Part shown: positions 56,691-64,000 of the stretch, piece by piece
How positions within the stretch are numbered: the first letter of the stretch is position 1
Layout: the number at the start of each line of letters is the position of its first letter
Source: Flavobacteriales bacterium
GTDB taxonomy: Bacteria > Bacteroidota > Bacteroidia > Flavobacteriales_D > Crocinitomicaceae
Assembly: GCA_947475095.1 (NCBI GenBank)
Contig: CANJLG010000002.1
Coordinates: 62,001 to 126,000, forward strand
Direction of reading: 5' to 3'
DNA length: 64,000 bases
The notes under the pieces: generated by a model
What the model was told of the DNA's origin: nothing
Databases searched by the model: none
What the model saw: the letters and a program-made list of their open reading frames with translations, nothing else
Position numbers and translations under genes: made by a program

Positions 56691-57143
56691 ATGATTCAAC
56701 GAATACAGCATTTATATTTTGGTTTTGTTATCATTAATCTTTCAATTTTACTAAGTGGTATACAATTATGTGCCTATGAGGCTATTGGTATGCCACATCA
56801 ATTAAATGCATTTGATATTCGAAATGGAAAAGAAGTCGTTATGCTATTTCCATTATACATTGTGGTTATATTATTAATGCTATTATTTATTGCCATCATC
56901 AGCCAATATAAGAAGTTAAAGCTTCAAATAAAACTGGCTAAAATCACTTTTTTGTGCTACCTTTTTTTCGTTTTGGGTATTACAGCTGTCTTTATAGCTG
57001 GGTGGCTACCTAATGCACCTTCAAACCTCACCCTCGGCTTTGGCTATTATTTATTAATATTGGGTTTGCCCTTTACCTATTTAGGTCTCCGTGGAATACA
57101 ACGAGACAAGAATTTACTTGACTCATACAATAGACTCCGTTAA
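56691..57143 (+). CDS. DUF4293 family membrane protein
   Basis: A 150-aa protein (ATG 56691, MIQRIQHLYFGFVIINLSIL) with four predicted helices: about residues 8-25, 50-70, 83-105 and 113-133. The MIQRIQ opening and four-helix layout match DUF4293, restricted to Bacteroidota. The track start at 56583 overlaps aroC and lacks any family resemblance. It is followed 1 bp later by an ABC-F ATPase gene; function of the family is unknown. Confidence 0.85.
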   Translation: MIQRIQHLYFGFVIINLSILLSGIQLCAYEAIGMPHQLNAFDIRNGKEVVMLFPLYIVVILLMLLFIAIISQYKKLKLQIKLAKITFLCYLFFVLGITAVFIAGWLPNAPSNLTLGFGYYLLILGLPFTYLGLRGIQRDKNLLDSYNRLR

Positions 57144-57144
57144 C

Positions 57145-59022
57145 ATGAATTATTTATCGGTTGAAAACCTCACCAAGTCATTCGGTGTCAGAATCTTATT
57201 TTCGGATTTAACATTTGGTATAGATCAAGGACAAAAAGTTGCAATTGTAGCAAAGAACGGCGCTGGAAAAACAACCCTATTGCGTTGCTTAATGGAGATG
57301 GAGCCATACGATAGTGGTCGAATCGTTTACCGAAACGACATTCGTATCGCCTTCATGGAGCAAAGTGAACAATTAAACCCAGAACAAACGATTCTTGAGG
57401 CAGTTTTTGACCACGATATCCCCGAATTACAATTAATCAAAACCTACAATATCGCTATTGCTAATAATGACGAAAAAGCGTTAGAGGAATGCTATCAACA
57501 GCTCACCGATATGAATGCGTGGGACATAGAAGTGAAAGTGCAACAGATCCTTAGCGTATTAAAACTAACTGATACCACTCAAAAAATTGAAAGCCTATCG
57601 GGTGGACAGAAGAAAAGAGTGGCCTTAGCAAAAGTACTCTTGTCTGAAGCAGATTTCCTATTTTTAGATGAGCCGACAAATCATTTAGACTTGGACATGA
57701 TAGAATGGTTAGAGTCCTATTTATCGACTTCTAAATCAACGATTTTAATGGTTACCCACGATCGCTATTTCCTTGAGGTTGTTTGTGATACCATTTACGA
57801 ATTGAGCAACGAAACACTGTTTCGATACAAAGGAAATTTTTCCTATTACTTGGAGAAAAAGGCAGAGCGTGAAGAGCAATTACAATCCACGGTTGATAAA
57901 GCTAGAAATACCTTCAGAAAAGAATTGGATTGGATTCGACGACAGCCGAAAGCGAGAGGAACGAAGCAAAAAGCACGCGTAGACGCTTTTGAAGGCATTA
58001 AATCTACTGCGCAAATGCGCTTAGAGGAAGACGAAATGGAACTTCCTGTTAAAATGGAGCGCTTAGGGTCCAAAATAGTAGAATTTCATAAAATCGTTAA
58101 AGCATTTGGCGATAAAACCATACTACATGATTTTTCTTATCATTTCCAACGCAAAGAACGCTTAGGTATTGTTGGTAATAATGGGACAGGAAAAAGCACC
58201 TTTTTAAACCTTTTAATTGGACAAGAAGAACCGAATAAAGGAAAAGTAGTGATTGGAGAAACCATCGTTTTCGGATACTATAGCCAAGATTTAATCAAAG
58301 TAGACGATTCCAAAAAAGTAATTGATGTTGTAAAAGACGTAGCTGAATACATCCCCTTAGAAAAAGGAAAACAATTGTCGGCATCGCAATTACTTGAGCG
58401 ATTTTTATTTACACGCGACAGTCACTATAATTTTGTACATAAATTAAGCGGTGGGGAAAAGCGGCGCTTAAAACTTCTAAAAGTTCTAATGTCCAATCCA
58501 AATTTTCTGATTTTGGATGAACCGACGAACGACTTGGACATTTTTGCGATGGCAGTATTAGAAGAATACTTACGAAATTTTCAAGGTTGTTTAGTAGTTG
58601 TTTCACACGACAGGTATTTCATGGATAAAATGGTAGACCACTTGTTTGTTTTTGAAGGCGAGGGAAAAATTTTAGATATTGTTGGCAATTATACTGATTA
58701 CAGAAAAGTGCAAAATGGTAGATCAAAAGAGGTGAAAAAGAACCTTGAGGCCCCTTTGAGCAAAGAGGAAGAAAAATTTTTAAAGCCTACTATACTTTCC
58801 AATGAAAAACGGAAGCTCAATTTTAAGGAGAAAGAAGAATTAAAAACCCTTGAAAAAAAGCTAGCGGAATTAGAAGTCATCAAACTTGAATTAACAGATA
58901 AATTGAGTGACACTAGCAAAAGCAATAGTGAACTTTATGAGGCTGGTATTGTACTTGGCAAGGTGATAAGCGAATTGGATGAACTTAGCAATCGCTGGCT
59001 AGAGCTATCTGAATTTGACTAA
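57145..59022 (+). CDS. ABC-F family ATPase
   Basis: Soluble duplicated ABC ATPase (625 aa) acting on ribosomes, without membrane domains. Two nucleotide-binding domains: first Walker A AKNGAGKTTL, signature LSGGQKKRVALAKVLL and Walker B DFLFLDEPTNHLDL; second GNNGTGKSTF, LSGGEKRRLKLLKVL and LILDEPTNDLDI. The interdomain linker (EEQLQSTVDKARNTFRKELD) is the ABC-F arm, and a C-terminal coiled coil (KEKEELKTLEKKLAELEVIK) is of the Uup type. The ATG at 57145 is chosen; it lies 1 bp after the DUF4293 stop. Confidence 0.93.
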   Translation: MNYLSVENLTKSFGVRILFSDLTFGIDQGQKVAIVAKNGAGKTTLLRCLMEMEPYDSGRIVYRNDIRIAFMEQSEQLNPEQTILEAVFDHDIPELQLIKTYNIAIANNDEKALEECYQQLTDMNAWDIEVKVQQILSVLKLTDTTQKIESLSGGQKKRVALAKVLLSEADFLFLDEPTNHLDLDMIEWLESYLSTSKSTILMVTHDRYFLEVVCDTIYELSNETLFRYKGNFSYYLEKKAEREEQLQSTVDKARNTFRKELDWIRRQPKARGTKQKARVDAFEGIKSTAQMRLEEDEMELPVKMERLGSKIVEFHKIVKAFGDKTILHDFSYHFQRKERLGIVGNNGTGKSTFLNLLIGQEEPNKGKVVIGETIVFGYYSQDLIKVDDSKKVIDVVKDVAEYIPLEKGKQLSASQLLERFLFTRDSHYNFVHKLSGGEKRRLKLLKVLMSNPNFLILDEPTNDLDIFAMAVLEEYLRNFQGCLVVVSHDRYFMDKMVDHLFVFEGEGKILDIVGNYTDYRKVQNGRSKEVKKNLEAPLSKEEEKFLKPTILSNEKRKLNFKEKEELKTLEKKLAELEVIKLELTDKLSDTSKSNSELYEAGIVLGKVISELDELSNRWLELSEFD

Positions 59023-59038
59023 GGTACATAGTTCCGTT

Positions 59039-59947
59039 TCATTTCCACTTTTGCTTAAATAAGGAATAAACTTCCTGAATCATTTCTCTATGTTTATTTA
59101 CATTTCCCATTTCAACTTCAATGTTAATGTATCGAATATTATTTTTAGTGCAATAAATTGAAAGAGAACCATCATCAAGTCCTTCTTCGCTTTGATAAAC
59201 CACATTCCTATTGATTGATTTAAAATATTCAAAATCTGATAAAGTATTAACGATATAAAAATTATCAATGTCTTCATTACTATTAACATAGGTAGCAATT
59301 ACATTTTTTGAATTAACATACGAACGAACTGAAAAATTATTATTGGTATTATTGTGAATAGCGACGAGATAACCGCTATCTAATTCAGGCCGAAAAATAC
59401 TTAATAAGCTATCTGAAAATCGTTTAATACCCTCTTCAACTTCAAGAGGAATGCTTTTTACATTAGGATTCAATTTTAGGAGAGTATTTTTGATTCCAAC
59501 TAATGAGAAAATTCTATTTGGGTCAAAGTGGTAAGTATTATCATTTGTTTTATACCTTAAATTTCGTTGTCCGAATTGATTTAATCTAAACAACGCAGTA
59601 TTCGGAAGTGAAGATGCTATGTCTAAATAGGCAGCAACGGATGCCGTTTCATTTTCATGTAAGGCAATAAATGTTGCGAATCTGTTTTGATCTCCCTTAT
59701 AGGTTAACTTGCAAGAATTAGTACCCAAAGGAAAAATGATGACACTGTCAACGAGAGCTTTTAGAGTTTGATTCTCCGGCGCTTCTTTCTGTACTTCACC
59801 TGGTGAAAGATCATTGCTTTTTGGCGTAAATTTTTCAATCAAAGGGGATGAGCTATGATTTTGATTAGATAAGTCTGAACTAAGGTTTAATTCAATCTGA
59901 GAAACTAAATTAAACGAAATTAAGATCGAAATAAAAAGAGATTTCAT
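59039..59947 (-). CDS. putative exported M14-like zinc peptidase/amidase
   Basis: A 302-aa exported protein (signal segment MKSLFISILISFNLVSQ) I could not match to a named family by eye, but it carries a carboxypeptidase-like metal layout: ALHENE (HxxE, H97/E100), NTYHFDPNRIFS (the Asn-Arg pair, N144/R145), second His in YLVAIHNNTN (H198) and a late Glu in YINIEVEMG. This order and spacing resemble M14 peptidases of the AstE/DUF2817 type. It has its own element TATATTTG, 4 bases before the ATG, and follows two M15 peptidase genes, so a peptidoglycan role is likely. Confidence 0.65.
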   Translation of the reverse strand: MKSLFISILISFNLVSQIELNLSSDLSNQNHSSSPLIEKFTPKSNDLSPGEVQKEAPENQTLKALVDSVIIFPLGTNSCKLTYKGDQNRFATFIALHENETASVAAYLDIASSLPNTALFRLNQFGQRNLRYKTNDNTYHFDPNRIFSLVGIKNTLLKLNPNVKSIPLEVEEGIKRFSDSLLSIFRPELDSGYLVAIHNNTNNNFSVRSYVNSKNVIATYVNSNEDIDNFYIVNTLSDFEYFKSINRNVVYQSEEGLDDGSLSIYCTKNNIRYINIEVEMGNVNKHREMIQEVYSLFKQKWK

Positions 59948-59951
59948 ACGT

Positions 59952-59959
59952 CAAATATA
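59952..59959 (-). promoter_or_regulatory. TAnnTTTG element abutting the M14-like gene
   Basis: Minus-strand TATATTTG, then ACGT, then ATG: a 4-base gap, predicting leaderless transcription separate from the upstream M15 genes. Confidence 0.5.
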
Positions 59960-60005
59960 GGAGTTAAATAGCGAATGACTTTTAGAAAAGTAACATTGTG
60001 CTTTA

Positions 60006-60785
60006 TTATTTTCTGCATGATTTACTAATTCCCAGGATAAAATTTTCAATTATTTTAACGCTACTATTCGAGGCTAATTCATCGCCTTGGAAACCATTTA
60101 TGTCTTTATATTGAATCTGATTTATATACGCATCTAACATTAAAGTCGAAATTGGCATATAGGACCAATGCCATTTTTCTACTTCATACCCTGTCCTTTT
60201 CGTTTCTTTTTTATCGTCGTAAACTTGACAAAATCCATAATTATGAGCATTGCTACTAAGCCAACTATACACTTTTTTTCCCATAGCACTCAAAAAATAA
60301 CTATCTTCTACAGAATTAACATCAAAATCGGTTCCCCAATGATGTCTTGAAGTAGAAGGCATTGAGCTCGAGGACAAGATTTTTAAAGTGATTCCGATTT
60401 CGTCCTTTGTGGTCGTTTTCAGATTATTCCATTTACGATCCCAAATAACTTTTTGTTCTAAGAAATTTCGTGTGCCAGAAAGTATAACAAGTGGAATACC
60501 ATCTTTAGCAGCGGCATTGGCCATTTTTTCAAAAGCGATATAGGTATCCTTCTGTAAGTAGATTTCTTTGTCGCTCCATTTTTCTGAAACCAACACAAAA
60601 TCAGAATGAGTGCGATAGTCGAATTTACCTAATAAAAAGTCTTTTGAATACTTAGTGCTGATTTTGGTTTGGGATTCTGGTATTATTTTATCTGTCTTAG
60701 TTTTATCTGTCTCAGTGCTTTCGCATGCGGAGCAAATGATCAACAAAAAATAAATTTGGACCTGAAAGAAATAAACTACTCGCAT
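60006..60785 (-). CDS. M15 family D-alanyl-D-alanine carboxypeptidase, probable lipoprotein
   Basis: A 259-aa exported VanY-type peptidase. The N-terminus MRVVYFFQVQIYFLLIICSAC looks like a lipoprotein signal with an atypical lipobox (CSAC), then a charged linker. The catalytic part has ISGTRNFLEQKVIW, SRHHWGTDFDVNS (zinc His and Asp) and EKWHWSYMP (second zinc His). It overlaps the upstream M15 gene by 10 bp and is its tandem paralogue. Role: trimming of peptidoglycan stem peptides in the periplasm; exact bond (DD or LD) is not resolvable. Confidence 0.87.
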   Translation of the reverse strand: MRVVYFFQVQIYFLLIICSACESTETDKTKTDKIIPESQTKISTKYSKDFLLGKFDYRTHSDFVLVSEKWSDKEIYLQKDTYIAFEKMANAAAKDGIPLVILSGTRNFLEQKVIWDRKWNNLKTTTKDEIGITLKILSSSSMPSTSRHHWGTDFDVNSVEDSYFLSAMGKKVYSWLSSNAHNYGFCQVYDDKKETKRTGYEVEKWHWSYMPISTLMLDAYINQIQYKDINGFQGDELASNSSVKIIENFILGISKSCRK

Positions 60786-61573
60786 TTTTTATTTATTCCA
60801 TTAACAAAATCCTCAATGACATTTATTTTTTTTGCGAGCTTACTTCCCGAAAAGCCATTAATATTAGAATAACTTACCAACTCGTTATATTTCTTTAGGT
60901 AAATACTAGACAAAGGCATATAGGACCAATGCCACTTCTCAAGTTCATAACCACTTCGTTTAGTCTCTTTCTTGTCATCATACACCTGACAGAAACCGAA
61001 TTTACCCGCATGTTCAACAAGCCATTTATATTCTTTCAAGCCCTGACCGTTTTCAAAATACGGACTTTCTAAACTAATTAAATCCATGTCTGTTCCCCAA
61101 TGATGTCTTGATGTACTGGGCATAGAACTGTACAATAAAATCTTTTTCATTATGGAAATACTATCTCCTAAACTACTAAATTTTATCCATTTATTTTCCC
61201 ATATACGCTTTTGGTCATCAAAATTTCGAGTGCCAGAAATTATGGTTAGTTTGATACCATCTTTCTGGGCTGCTTCATACATTTCTTTAAATTTAAGGTA
61301 TACCTCTTTTCGGAGATAAATTACTTTAGAACTAAATCTTGAATCAACCAAAACAAAATCTTTATCCTTTTTGTGGTCAAATTTTCCTAGCAAATAATTG
61401 ATCTCTTCAGTATTAATTTTAGCAATAGAGTTTGAACTAGTTACTGTAACTGTATTTTCATTCTTGTTTGCAGGGTTACTTTGATTTTTATCAGCACTAG
61501 CAGGTGAGAATACACTTAAGTAAATTAAAATAAGTTGTTTAATTAATAAGGTGAAAGGTATAATGGATAGCAT
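60776..61573 (-). CDS. M15 family D-alanyl-D-alanine carboxypeptidase, secreted paralogue
   Basis: A 265-aa peptidase with signal peptide MLSIIPFTLLIKQLILIYLS and an Asn-rich linker. Catalytic motifs match the downstream paralogue: IISGTRNFDDQKRIW, TSRHHWGTDMDLIS and EKWHWSYMPLSS, with the same YGFCQVYDDKKETKR-type block (GFCQVYDDKKETKRSGYE). It lacks a clear lipobox, so the two paralogues may differ in location: one free or anchored by its signal, one lipid-anchored. It sits 22 bp after the SH3 gene. Confidence 0.88.
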   Translation of the reverse strand: MLSIIPFTLLIKQLILIYLSVFSPASADKNQSNPANKNENTVTVTSSNSIAKINTEEINYLLGKFDHKKDKDFVLVDSRFSSKVIYLRKEVYLKFKEMYEAAQKDGIKLTIISGTRNFDDQKRIWENKWIKFSSLGDSISIMKKILLYSSMPSTSRHHWGTDMDLISLESPYFENGQGLKEYKWLVEHAGKFGFCQVYDDKKETKRSGYELEKWHWSYMPLSSIYLKKYNELVSYSNINGFSGSKLAKKINVIEDFVNGINKKCE

Positions 61574-61595
61574 TAACTACAGAATTTTAGGTTAA

Positions 61596-62078
61596 TTAAT
61601 AAATTTCATCAACATACTTTCCAAAAACCCAACCCACTAATGATTTTGAGCTTTTAATTAAATACCATTTTTCACCATTAATAAATTCTAAAAGGGAAGA
61701 AGAAATGCTTGCATAACCTACACCACCATTTCTGTTCTTAAATGAAATACGGTAAGTATCTTCTGAAATATTTCTAATTACTGTAACTGCTTTTCCTGCA
61801 TCCAATGAAAACATAAACGTATTATTGTATTCACTATAAAAATTAGTTTTGCTTCTTATAAGAGCCTCATTGTTATTTCCAGATGGATAATAAACATCTA
61901 ATATTTCAACAATTTCATTGAGTTGCAAGGAACCTTTTCTTACACTAGTAGTAGAGTGTTCTGACCTAACATTAATATTAGATCCTGTTATTCTCGCAGA
62001 AGAATATTGACTGAAAGCAGAGGAACTAATCAATACGAAAAGAAAAATTAAAGGATAAAAAAATTGGATTAAACGCAT
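61596..62078 (-). CDS. exported bacterial SH3 domain protein
   Basis: A 160-aa exported protein with signal peptide MRLIQFFYPLIFLFVLISSS. Residues about 28-95 form an SH3_3-type domain (ITGSNINVRSEHSTTSVRKG), and residues about 100-160 may form a second, including EKWYLIKSSKSLVGWVFGKY. Bacterial SH3 domains bind peptidoglycan peptides, so it may target or regulate the M15 peptidases encoded next in the operon. A promoter element lies 38 bases before the ATG. Confidence 0.82.
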   Translation of the reverse strand: MRLIQFFYPLIFLFVLISSSAFSQYSSARITGSNINVRSEHSTTSVRKGSLQLNEIVEILDVYYPSGNNNEALIRSKTNFYSEYNNTFMFSLDAGKAVTVIRNISEDTYRISFKNRNGGVGYASISSSLLEFINGEKWYLIKSSKSLVGWVFGKYVDEIY

Positions 62079-62115
62079 AAGAATATAGATTAGTTAAAGA
62101 AATAAATACTACAAT

Positions 62116-62123
62116 CAAAGATA
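62116..62123 (-). promoter_or_regulatory. TAnnTTTG promoter element for the SH3/M15 operon
   Basis: Minus-strand TATCTTTG is a full match, 37 bases before the ATG, giving an ordinary leader of roughly 30 nt. No strong -33 element. Confidence 0.5.
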
Positions 62124-62204
62124 ATTTAAATTATTCGTATAAAAAAATAACGTTTCAACTTCAAACTCCACCTTACTACGAGCTAATAAATAGTCGCTTT
62201 TATG

Positions 62205-62212
62205 TAACTTTG
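62205..62212 (+). promoter_or_regulatory. TAnnTTTG element abutting the barrel-like gene
   Basis: TAACTTTG, then TAAT, then ATG at 62217: another 4-base distance, predicting a leaderless mRNA. Confidence 0.5.
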
Positions 62213-62216
62213 TAAT

Positions 62217-62945
62217 ATGAGAACGATACTATTGATTATTCTGATTTGGACTTTGTCTCCCACTTCTTATTTTGCACAGATCATCAGTAAGGAGGGAAAG
62301 GTCATTAAAGAAAAAAAAACAAAAGCTCCAAGCTACATAGTTTTCGACGCCAACCATACGAATTCATTTAGGAAATTGGGTGAAAATAAACAATTCATCA
62401 CCTTGCCATTAGGAGAACGAGCGAAAGAAACTCCCCTAAAAATTTGGTCATATTTCTTAGGAATGAACACCAGTTTGAATCGCTTTCTGCGTTTTCAGGG
62501 TGGGATTTCTTTTCTCCAAACGGGCGAACAATATCTTTATCAAGGGGCTTTAGGCAGCGACAGCACTTATTCCTACCAAACAAAGTACCGTTATTTCGCT
62601 ATGCCATGTCAACTAACATTCGAACAAGGCAAGCAACTCCGTTTTTCTATCGGTGCCGGCATTATGCCTCAACTTTTTAATAGTTACCGCCAAAACCAAC
62701 AATGGAAGACTGAGCTGGGTGGTAAATACGACAACACAAATAAAGAAGGCAGTACCTGCAATTCTTTTGGATTAAGCTTAGTGTCTTCTGCAGGACTGCA
62801 TTATGTTTCAGCCAAAACATGGGGAATCTATTTTAAAATGACGTACCGCTATCAACTCACAAATACCTTAACTAAATATGGCGATTATGAGCACTTTTCG
62901 AAGGGCTTAGGCTACAGCATTGGTATCAGCAAAAACATAGAATAG
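62217..62945 (+). CDS. exported outer-membrane beta-barrel-like protein of unknown function
   Basis: A 242-aa exported protein with signal peptide MRTILLIILIWTLSPTSYFA. From about residue 75 the sequence alternates strands typical of small Bacteroidota barrels (FLRFQGGISFLQTGEQYLYQ, LRFSIGAGIMPQLFNSYRQN, GIYFKMTYRYQLTNTLTKYG) and ends in GLGYSIGISKNIE. No family name recognised. It has its own promoter and is immediately followed by the Nif3-like gene, whose ATG directly follows its stop (TAGATG). Confidence 0.75.
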   Translation: MRTILLIILIWTLSPTSYFAQIISKEGKVIKEKKTKAPSYIVFDANHTNSFRKLGENKQFITLPLGERAKETPLKIWSYFLGMNTSLNRFLRFQGGISFLQTGEQYLYQGALGSDSTYSYQTKYRYFAMPCQLTFEQGKQLRFSIGAGIMPQLFNSYRQNQQWKTELGGKYDNTNKEGSTCNSFGLSLVSSAGLHYVSAKTWGIYFKMTYRYQLTNTLTKYGDYEHFSKGLGYSIGISKNIE

Positions 62946-64000
62946 ATGCAATTAAATGAATTAATACATTTTTTCGAAAAGGAATACCCATTGCAACTTC
63001 AAGAAGATTACGACAATTGCGGGTTGCAGATAGGAGACACCTCGCTTTCCATACGTGGTATTTTGGTAAGTTTAGATTGCAGCGAAGCAGTGGTCACAGA
63101 GGCCATTGAGCATAATTGCAACCTGATTATTTGCCATCACCCACTTTTATTTAATGGTTTAAAGCAAATTGGGGCTAGTAGCTATGTAGAACGGGTGGTG
63201 CGCATGTGCATAAAAAATGATATTGCTGTTTATGCCATTCACACCAATCTCGACAACCATCCAGAGGGAGTGAATGCAGAAATCGGTCGACGCATTGGCT
63301 TGATGAATACCAAGATCTTAGCACCAAAAACGAATACCCTCTATAAATTAAGTGTCTATACGCCAAAAGATGCCCTAGAAGCATTGGACGCAGCAATATT
63401 TAAAGCTGGAGGAGGTGGTATTGGAAATTATACTGAATGTCACTTTCGGCAGGAGGGAATTGGAACCTTTACCCCAGGCGTATTAGCAAATCCTACTAGT
63501 GGAACTATTGGCGAACGCTCTCAAGAATCGGAATTAAAAGTAGAGTACCTTGTAGATAGCCAACATTTACCCCACGTACTCAAAGCAATGAATGAAAGTC
63601 ATCCATATGAAGAAGTGGCCCACGACATCATTTTATTAAAAAACCAAGACACTAGATATGGTGCCGGACTAATAGGCGAATTAGAAACGCCATGCGAAGA
63701 AATGGCCTTTTTGGCGCAATTGAAGAAAATATTTAACAGCAAGGGAATTAGGCACACTAAATTAATTACAAAACCTATAAGGAAAGTAGCCCTTTGTGGT
63801 GGCAGTGGAAGTTTTCTAACCAAAGAAGCAATTCGCTCAGGAGCAGACTGTTACATAACATCTGACGTTAAATACCATGAATTTTTTGATGCAGATGAAC
63901 GTATACTCTTAATCGATATTGGGCATTACGAAAGTGAACAATATACTTCTACTCTATTGATAGAAAAAATTAAAGAAAATTTTACTAACTTTGCCATCCG
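62946..64000 (+). CDS. Nif3-like dinuclear metal center protein (partial, cut by window end)
   Basis: Not in the ORF track because it runs off the window; the open frame from ATG 62946 continues to position 64000 (351 codons) without a stop. Motifs: MQLNELIHFFEKEYPLQL start, EDYDNCGLQIGD, the metal-binding LIICHHPLLFNGLK, a middle insert domain, SHPYEEVAHDIILL, ALCGGSGSFLTKEAIRSGAD and IDIGHYESE. This is the larger Nif3/YbgI type with the PII-like insertion (usually about 360-370 aa), so only a few residues are missing. Often called GTP cyclohydrolase I type 2, but activity is unproven. Confidence 0.93.
   Translation, partial: MQLNELIHFFEKEYPLQLQEDYDNCGLQIGDTSLSIRGILVSLDCSEAVVTEAIEHNCNLIICHHPLLFNGLKQIGASSYVERVVRMCIKNDIAVYAIHTNLDNHPEGVNAEIGRRIGLMNTKILAPKTNTLYKLSVYTPKDALEALDAAIFKAGGGGIGNYTECHFRQEGIGTFTPGVLANPTSGTIGERSQESELKVEYLVDSQHLPHVLKAMNESHPYEEVAHDIILLKNQDTRYGAGLIGELETPCEEMAFLAQLKKIFNSKGIRHTKLITKPIRKVALCGGSGSFLTKEAIRSGADCYITSDVKYHEFFDADERILLIDIGHYESEQYTSTLLIEKIKENFTNFAI

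Follow-up and report, generated by a model that had tools for sequence, protein, structure and literature searches.

The four exported-type genes on the minus strand between 59039 and 62078 of the window likely represent two separate entities, namely an accessory stem-peptide trimming operon made up of genes 1–3 and a co-located but independent M14-like hydrolase encoded by gene 4. The window is the whole stretch of 64,000 nucleotides that was analyzed (positions 62001–126000 of contig C2), in a genome of 2.56 Mb. The initial annotation had joined an SH3 protein, two M15 peptidases, and an M14-like protein into one cell-wall hydrolase cassette; this four-gene hypothesis is now narrowed to three genes and can be tested as such, in the form of an accessory trimming operon of Bacteroidota that carries its SH3 module as a separate protein. 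The novelty that remains is the unnamed exported family of gene 4.

Gene Organization of the Locus

An ORF check confirmed the four minus-strand genes at the positions and spacings first noted. Gene 1 (61596–62078, 160 aa) encodes an exported-type protein with two SH3-like beta domains of the SH3_3 family, and gene 2 (M15a; 60776–61573, 265 aa) a predicted exported-type M15B/VanY zinc carboxypeptidase. Gene 3 (M15b; 60006–60785, 259 aa) is a diverged paralogue of gene 2 and possibly a lipoprotein, while gene 4 (59039–59947, 302 aa) encodes an exported-type protein of an unnamed family with an M14-like metal layout. Consecutive genes are spaced by 22, −10, and 58 bp, and the N-termini of all four proteins, as judged by eye, resemble export signals. 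Since homologues of all four ORFs occur elsewhere, each is a real gene and none is a chance ORF. The group is flanked upstream of gene 1 by a divergent gene for an outer-membrane-like protein with weak Pfam matches only (62217–62945) and beyond gene 4 by a convergent gene for an ABC-F-like protein, named from its own sequence (57091–59022).

Paired M15 Enzymes and Their Putative SH3 Partner

A Pfam search bore out the assignment of one SH3_3 and two M15 proteins, with scores for VanY (PF02557) far above the cut-off of 25 in both M15a (E = 5e-33, 114.1 bits) and M15b (E = 9e-30, 103.6 bits). The nearest solved structures of the M15 proteins are YodJ (4ox3, the nearest PDB entry to M15a at E = 8e-15) and other entries of the D-Ala carboxypeptidase (LdcB/VanY) type. 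Both proteins share the motifs SGTRNF..Q, SRHHWGTD.D, and EKWH, which read SGTRNFDDQ at residue 113, SRHHWGTDMD at 155, and EKWH at 212 in M15a, and SGTRNFLEQ at 103, SRHHWGTDFD at 146, and EKWH at 203 in M15b. The underlying patterns R....Q, SxHx6D, and ExWH were preserved in 91 of 91 distinct M15 homologues. In LdcB, His153, Asp160, and His207 are the zinc ligands, Arg120 and Glu204 are positioned next to the water, and D-Ala specificity is assigned to Gln125 and Ser151 (PMC4087270). Equivalents of all seven residues are found in M15a and M15b, and because the zinc, catalytic, and D-Ala-recognition residues are thus kept, we read the two proteins as accessory D-Ala carboxypeptidases.

As zinc carboxypeptidases, the M15B pair would take off C-terminal D-alanine, most likely from tetrapeptides (LD-carboxypeptidase, as in LdcB) or from pentapeptides (DD-carboxypeptidase, as in VanY); the motifs fit either predicted specificity and would not separate LD from DD. 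Neither protein reached the NCBIfam cut-off for LdcB (39.6 and 33.7 bits against 275) or those for vanY/vanXY (at most 47 bits against cut-offs of at least 250). A core S13 DD-carboxypeptidase is already present in 79 of the 86 genomes of the genus, the source genome included, which points to an accessory role for the M15 pair. M15 genes are also rare in the genus (8/86) and therefore cannot be essential.

The M15 pair resembles LdcB/DacB (S. pneumoniae; YodJ in B. subtilis; family M15B) in its zinc ligands, in the catalytic Glu, and in the Arg, Gln, and Ser associated with D-Ala, and LdcB/DacB is likewise an exported cell-wall enzyme, export of the window pair being judged by eye. In contrast to LdcB/DacB, the window enzymes belong to a Gram-negative member of the Bacteroidota, are tandem paralogues with a companion SH3 gene, and have a predicted activity only. 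With the VanY D,D-carboxypeptidase they have the Pfam VanY domain in common, whereas van resistance genes were absent from the neighbouring ORFs that were read. The hydrophobic stretch of M15b closes with CSAC|ES, a possible lipoprotein site. By tree path, M15b is nearest to the copies that stand second in the M15 pairs of the genus, with weak support; this second copy has the appearance of a paralogue that diverged long ago, not of a tandem duplicate made recently, in a tree whose deepest forks are weakly supported. A phage origin of M15a was considered and rejected, the matches being weak and partial with at most 34% identity.

Gene 1 matched Pfam SH3_3 (E = 3e-8; 34.1 bits, cut-off 27), and its SH3-like beta domains span residues ~25–80 and ~85–158. 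An AlphaFold2 model built from 14 sequences (pLDDT 87.9, pTM 0.73) displayed small all-beta domains at high confidence, and a Foldseek search with this model returned SH3 domains, with SH3-bearing NlpC/P60-type peptidases (4r0k, 3npf) among the best matches. Whole-chain TM-scores were low, so the domain arrangement of gene 1 is unlike that of any Foldseek match. The wall-binding domains listed for M15 enzymes include SH3_3 (PMC6403190), and modular M15 wall hydrolases with SH3_3 have two domain types in common with the window unit; unlike in those enzymes, an upstream gene here encodes the SH3 part as a two-domain protein of its own. Gene 1 is a putative wall-binding or partner protein whose SH3 fold comes from a predicted model.

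Taken as an accessory periplasmic operon, genes 1–3 would trim peptidoglycan stem peptides, with the separate two-domain SH3 protein binding wall peptides and docking or localizing the enzymes. The docking role is a guess from the domain type and, like M15 activity and the bond that is cut, is something we infer.

Recurrence of the SH3-M15(-M15) Unit

With M15a as the query, matches were obtained in 8 of the 86 genus genomes. The gene order SH3-M15-M15 is shared by six species (G000, G076, G127, G145, G159, and G230); in G157 and G202, the M15 copies stand in tandem and no SH3 gene was detected. G041, G077, and G101, which belong to another genus of the same family, have the unit in the form SH3-M15. 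Public genomes supplied 80 M15 loci, and an SH3 gene lies directly upstream of M15 in 13 of them (14 if one weak match is counted), mostly at a distance of −34 to +27 bp; these loci include Flavobacteriales and one Balneolaceae genome. Such recurrence across the Bacteroidota upholds the proposal that SH3 and the paired M15 enzymes form a cell-wall-type unit. A literature search for units in Bacteroidetes that combine M15 with SH3 returned one general review as its sole result. The SH3-M15(-M15) operon is real, yet close to known cell-wall biology.

Directly downstream of the unit, six relatives from two genera carry an SpmAB-like gene with a double Gate domain (including L035:6523–7752, L211:8163–9392, L038:1885–3117, L039:2293–3525, and L040:632–1864), the G230 copy of which is broken by stop codons. 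This adjacency is reminiscent of the order dacB-spmA-spmB in B. subtilis (PMC8745062). Most members of the genus that lack M15 have SpmAB as well, so that the M15-SpmAB link is only suggestive.

Position of Gene 4 Relative to the Unit

The consensus of the Bacteroidota −7 promoter element is TAnnTTTG. A pattern scan of the minus strand from 58000 to 63500 disclosed matches only before gene 1 (TATCTTTG, 62116–62123, ~37 bp upstream of the gene) and before gene 4 (TATATTTG, 59952–59959, in the 58-bp gap directly before the gene). At the window rate, the chance of one such match within 58 bp is ~0.04. The motif at 59952–59959 suggests separate transcription of gene 4, although the 58-bp gap still permits read-through.

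A blastn comparison of the window with L245 delimited a block of 3,166 bp (59018–62183) that holds exactly the four genes. In the sister genome G236, with 94–96% nucleotide identity, both flanks are kept and 128 unrelated bp replace the block. The GC content of the block is 31%, compared with 35% for the window. No direct repeats of at least 8 bp were found at the block ends. The site is variable: in more distant members of the genus it contains a reading frame resembling the end of a PhoD-type phosphatase. We infer from the comparison with G236, a single genome, that the block was either gained here or lost there. G108, G232, G217, and G100 have other content between the ABC-F-like and outer-membrane-like genes.

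These observations bear on the explanation that the four genes are one cassette, gained as one block, in which SH3 targeting, two M15 carboxypeptidases, and a peptidase of the M14 type would act together to take stem peptides apart. The single indel relative to G236, the low GC content throughout the four genes, their common strand, and their short gaps all agree with it. However, joint movement of four genes cannot rest on one genome, and a promoter-like motif precedes gene 4 itself. Co-occurrence of the four genes was looked for in related genomes and did not emerge; neighbours were read at 14 further gene 4 loci, those of the genus members G166, G235, and G222 included, and neither SH3 nor VanY/M15 stands beside gene 4 at any of them, so the cassette is not a conserved system. 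The associated idea of enzymes cutting stem peptides from different ends also found no support, in that the M15 pair carries the C-terminal D-Ala recognition residues of LdcB and nothing ties gene 4 to peptidoglycan. We consider the cassette improbable. Less credible still is the view that the M15 proteins, instead of trimming as carboxypeptidases, are endopeptidases or lytic enzymes that serve autolysis or attack on other bacteria. Endolysins do belong to the M15 clan, as does ChiX, a peptidoglycan hydrolase linked to secretion (cf. PMC5778951), and proteins of Listeria phage and cyanophages gave weak matches; against this, the best PDB matches are carboxypeptidases of the LdcB/VanY type, the D-Ala-recognition residues are conserved, the NCBIfam scan gave no match to the type IX sorting-domain model, and inspection found no phage genes beside the loci. 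Trimming by genes 1–3, with gene 4 as a neighbour, accounts better for these data.

Gene 4 Family

As a single sequence, gene 4 had no match in Pfam, NCBIfam, or PDB, and a search of its 20-member family against Pfam and PDB gave nothing reliable. An alignment of 20 homologues revealed H97, E100, R128, D142-P-N-R145, H198, and E277 as invariant, along with an HNN motif. The family thereby contains an M14-like residue set with an HxxE...H zinc site, an NR pair, and a catalytic E, and the carboxypeptidase-like metal layout that had been proposed for gene 4 stands in this respect. The order and register of HxxE, NR, H, and E correspond to those of the AstE/AspA branch of M14-type zinc hydrolases, from which gene 4 differs in being exported, in its own conserved motifs DPNRIF, HNNT, and DGSLS, and in having no significant sequence similarity to it.

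The layout could also be convergent or coincidental in a protein of another fold that is no relative of M14. Apart from the lack of a significant database match, hhalign comparisons of gene 4 with M14 and AstE/AspA profiles were not significant (probability <1%), and in a control for the AstE/AspA alignment the real score was exceeded by 1 of 60 profiles with shuffled columns. In opposition to this, the AstE/AspA profile alignment, unprompted, lined up H, E, N, R, H, and E with their counterparts across ~150 columns, and all six of these catalytic-type residues are invariant in the family alignment. We regard the unrelated fold as rather unlikely, though it weighs more heavily than the alternatives discussed above. 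Gene 4 appears M14-like in its residue layout, with the fold unproven; an AlphaFold2 prediction from one sequence, with a pLDDT of 31.8, was too poor to use. It is probably a separate exported, metal-dependent hydrolase, and we lean towards placing it in an undescribed, wide but sparse family of exported M14-like zinc hydrolases that lie outside Pfam, NCBIfam, and PDB. Flagging this unnamed exported family matters, as annotation leaves such proteins hypothetical.

A single-sequence search detected homologues of gene 4 in 22 of 150 genomes of the taxonomic family (one of them a weak fragment with stops), and they occur in 4 of 86 genus genomes (the others being G166, G235, and G222) and in 15 of 396 across the phylum, the source genome being counted in each figure. 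No relatives were found in viral contigs. Plasmids of Legionella adelaidensis (L206:4007–4651) and Piscirickettsia salmonis (L207:3857–4639) also carry homologues, annotated as hypothetical. In three members of the genus, the gene after gene 4 encodes a conserved protein of ~120 aa that is apparently exported (L208:8168–8530, L209:3124–3489, and L214:528–893), and the one that was scanned had no Pfam match. Four genomes of the family have an MFS transporter gene, the same cluster in each case, near gene 4. An aldehyde-dehydrogenase-like gene is situated near gene 4 homologues in L049 (6948–11537) and L044 (5982–9617), and of the two L049 also has genes for a proline racemase and an oxidase of the DAO family. 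Neighbours of this kind could be a possible clue to the substrate, pointing to catabolism of hydroxyproline or a related compound.
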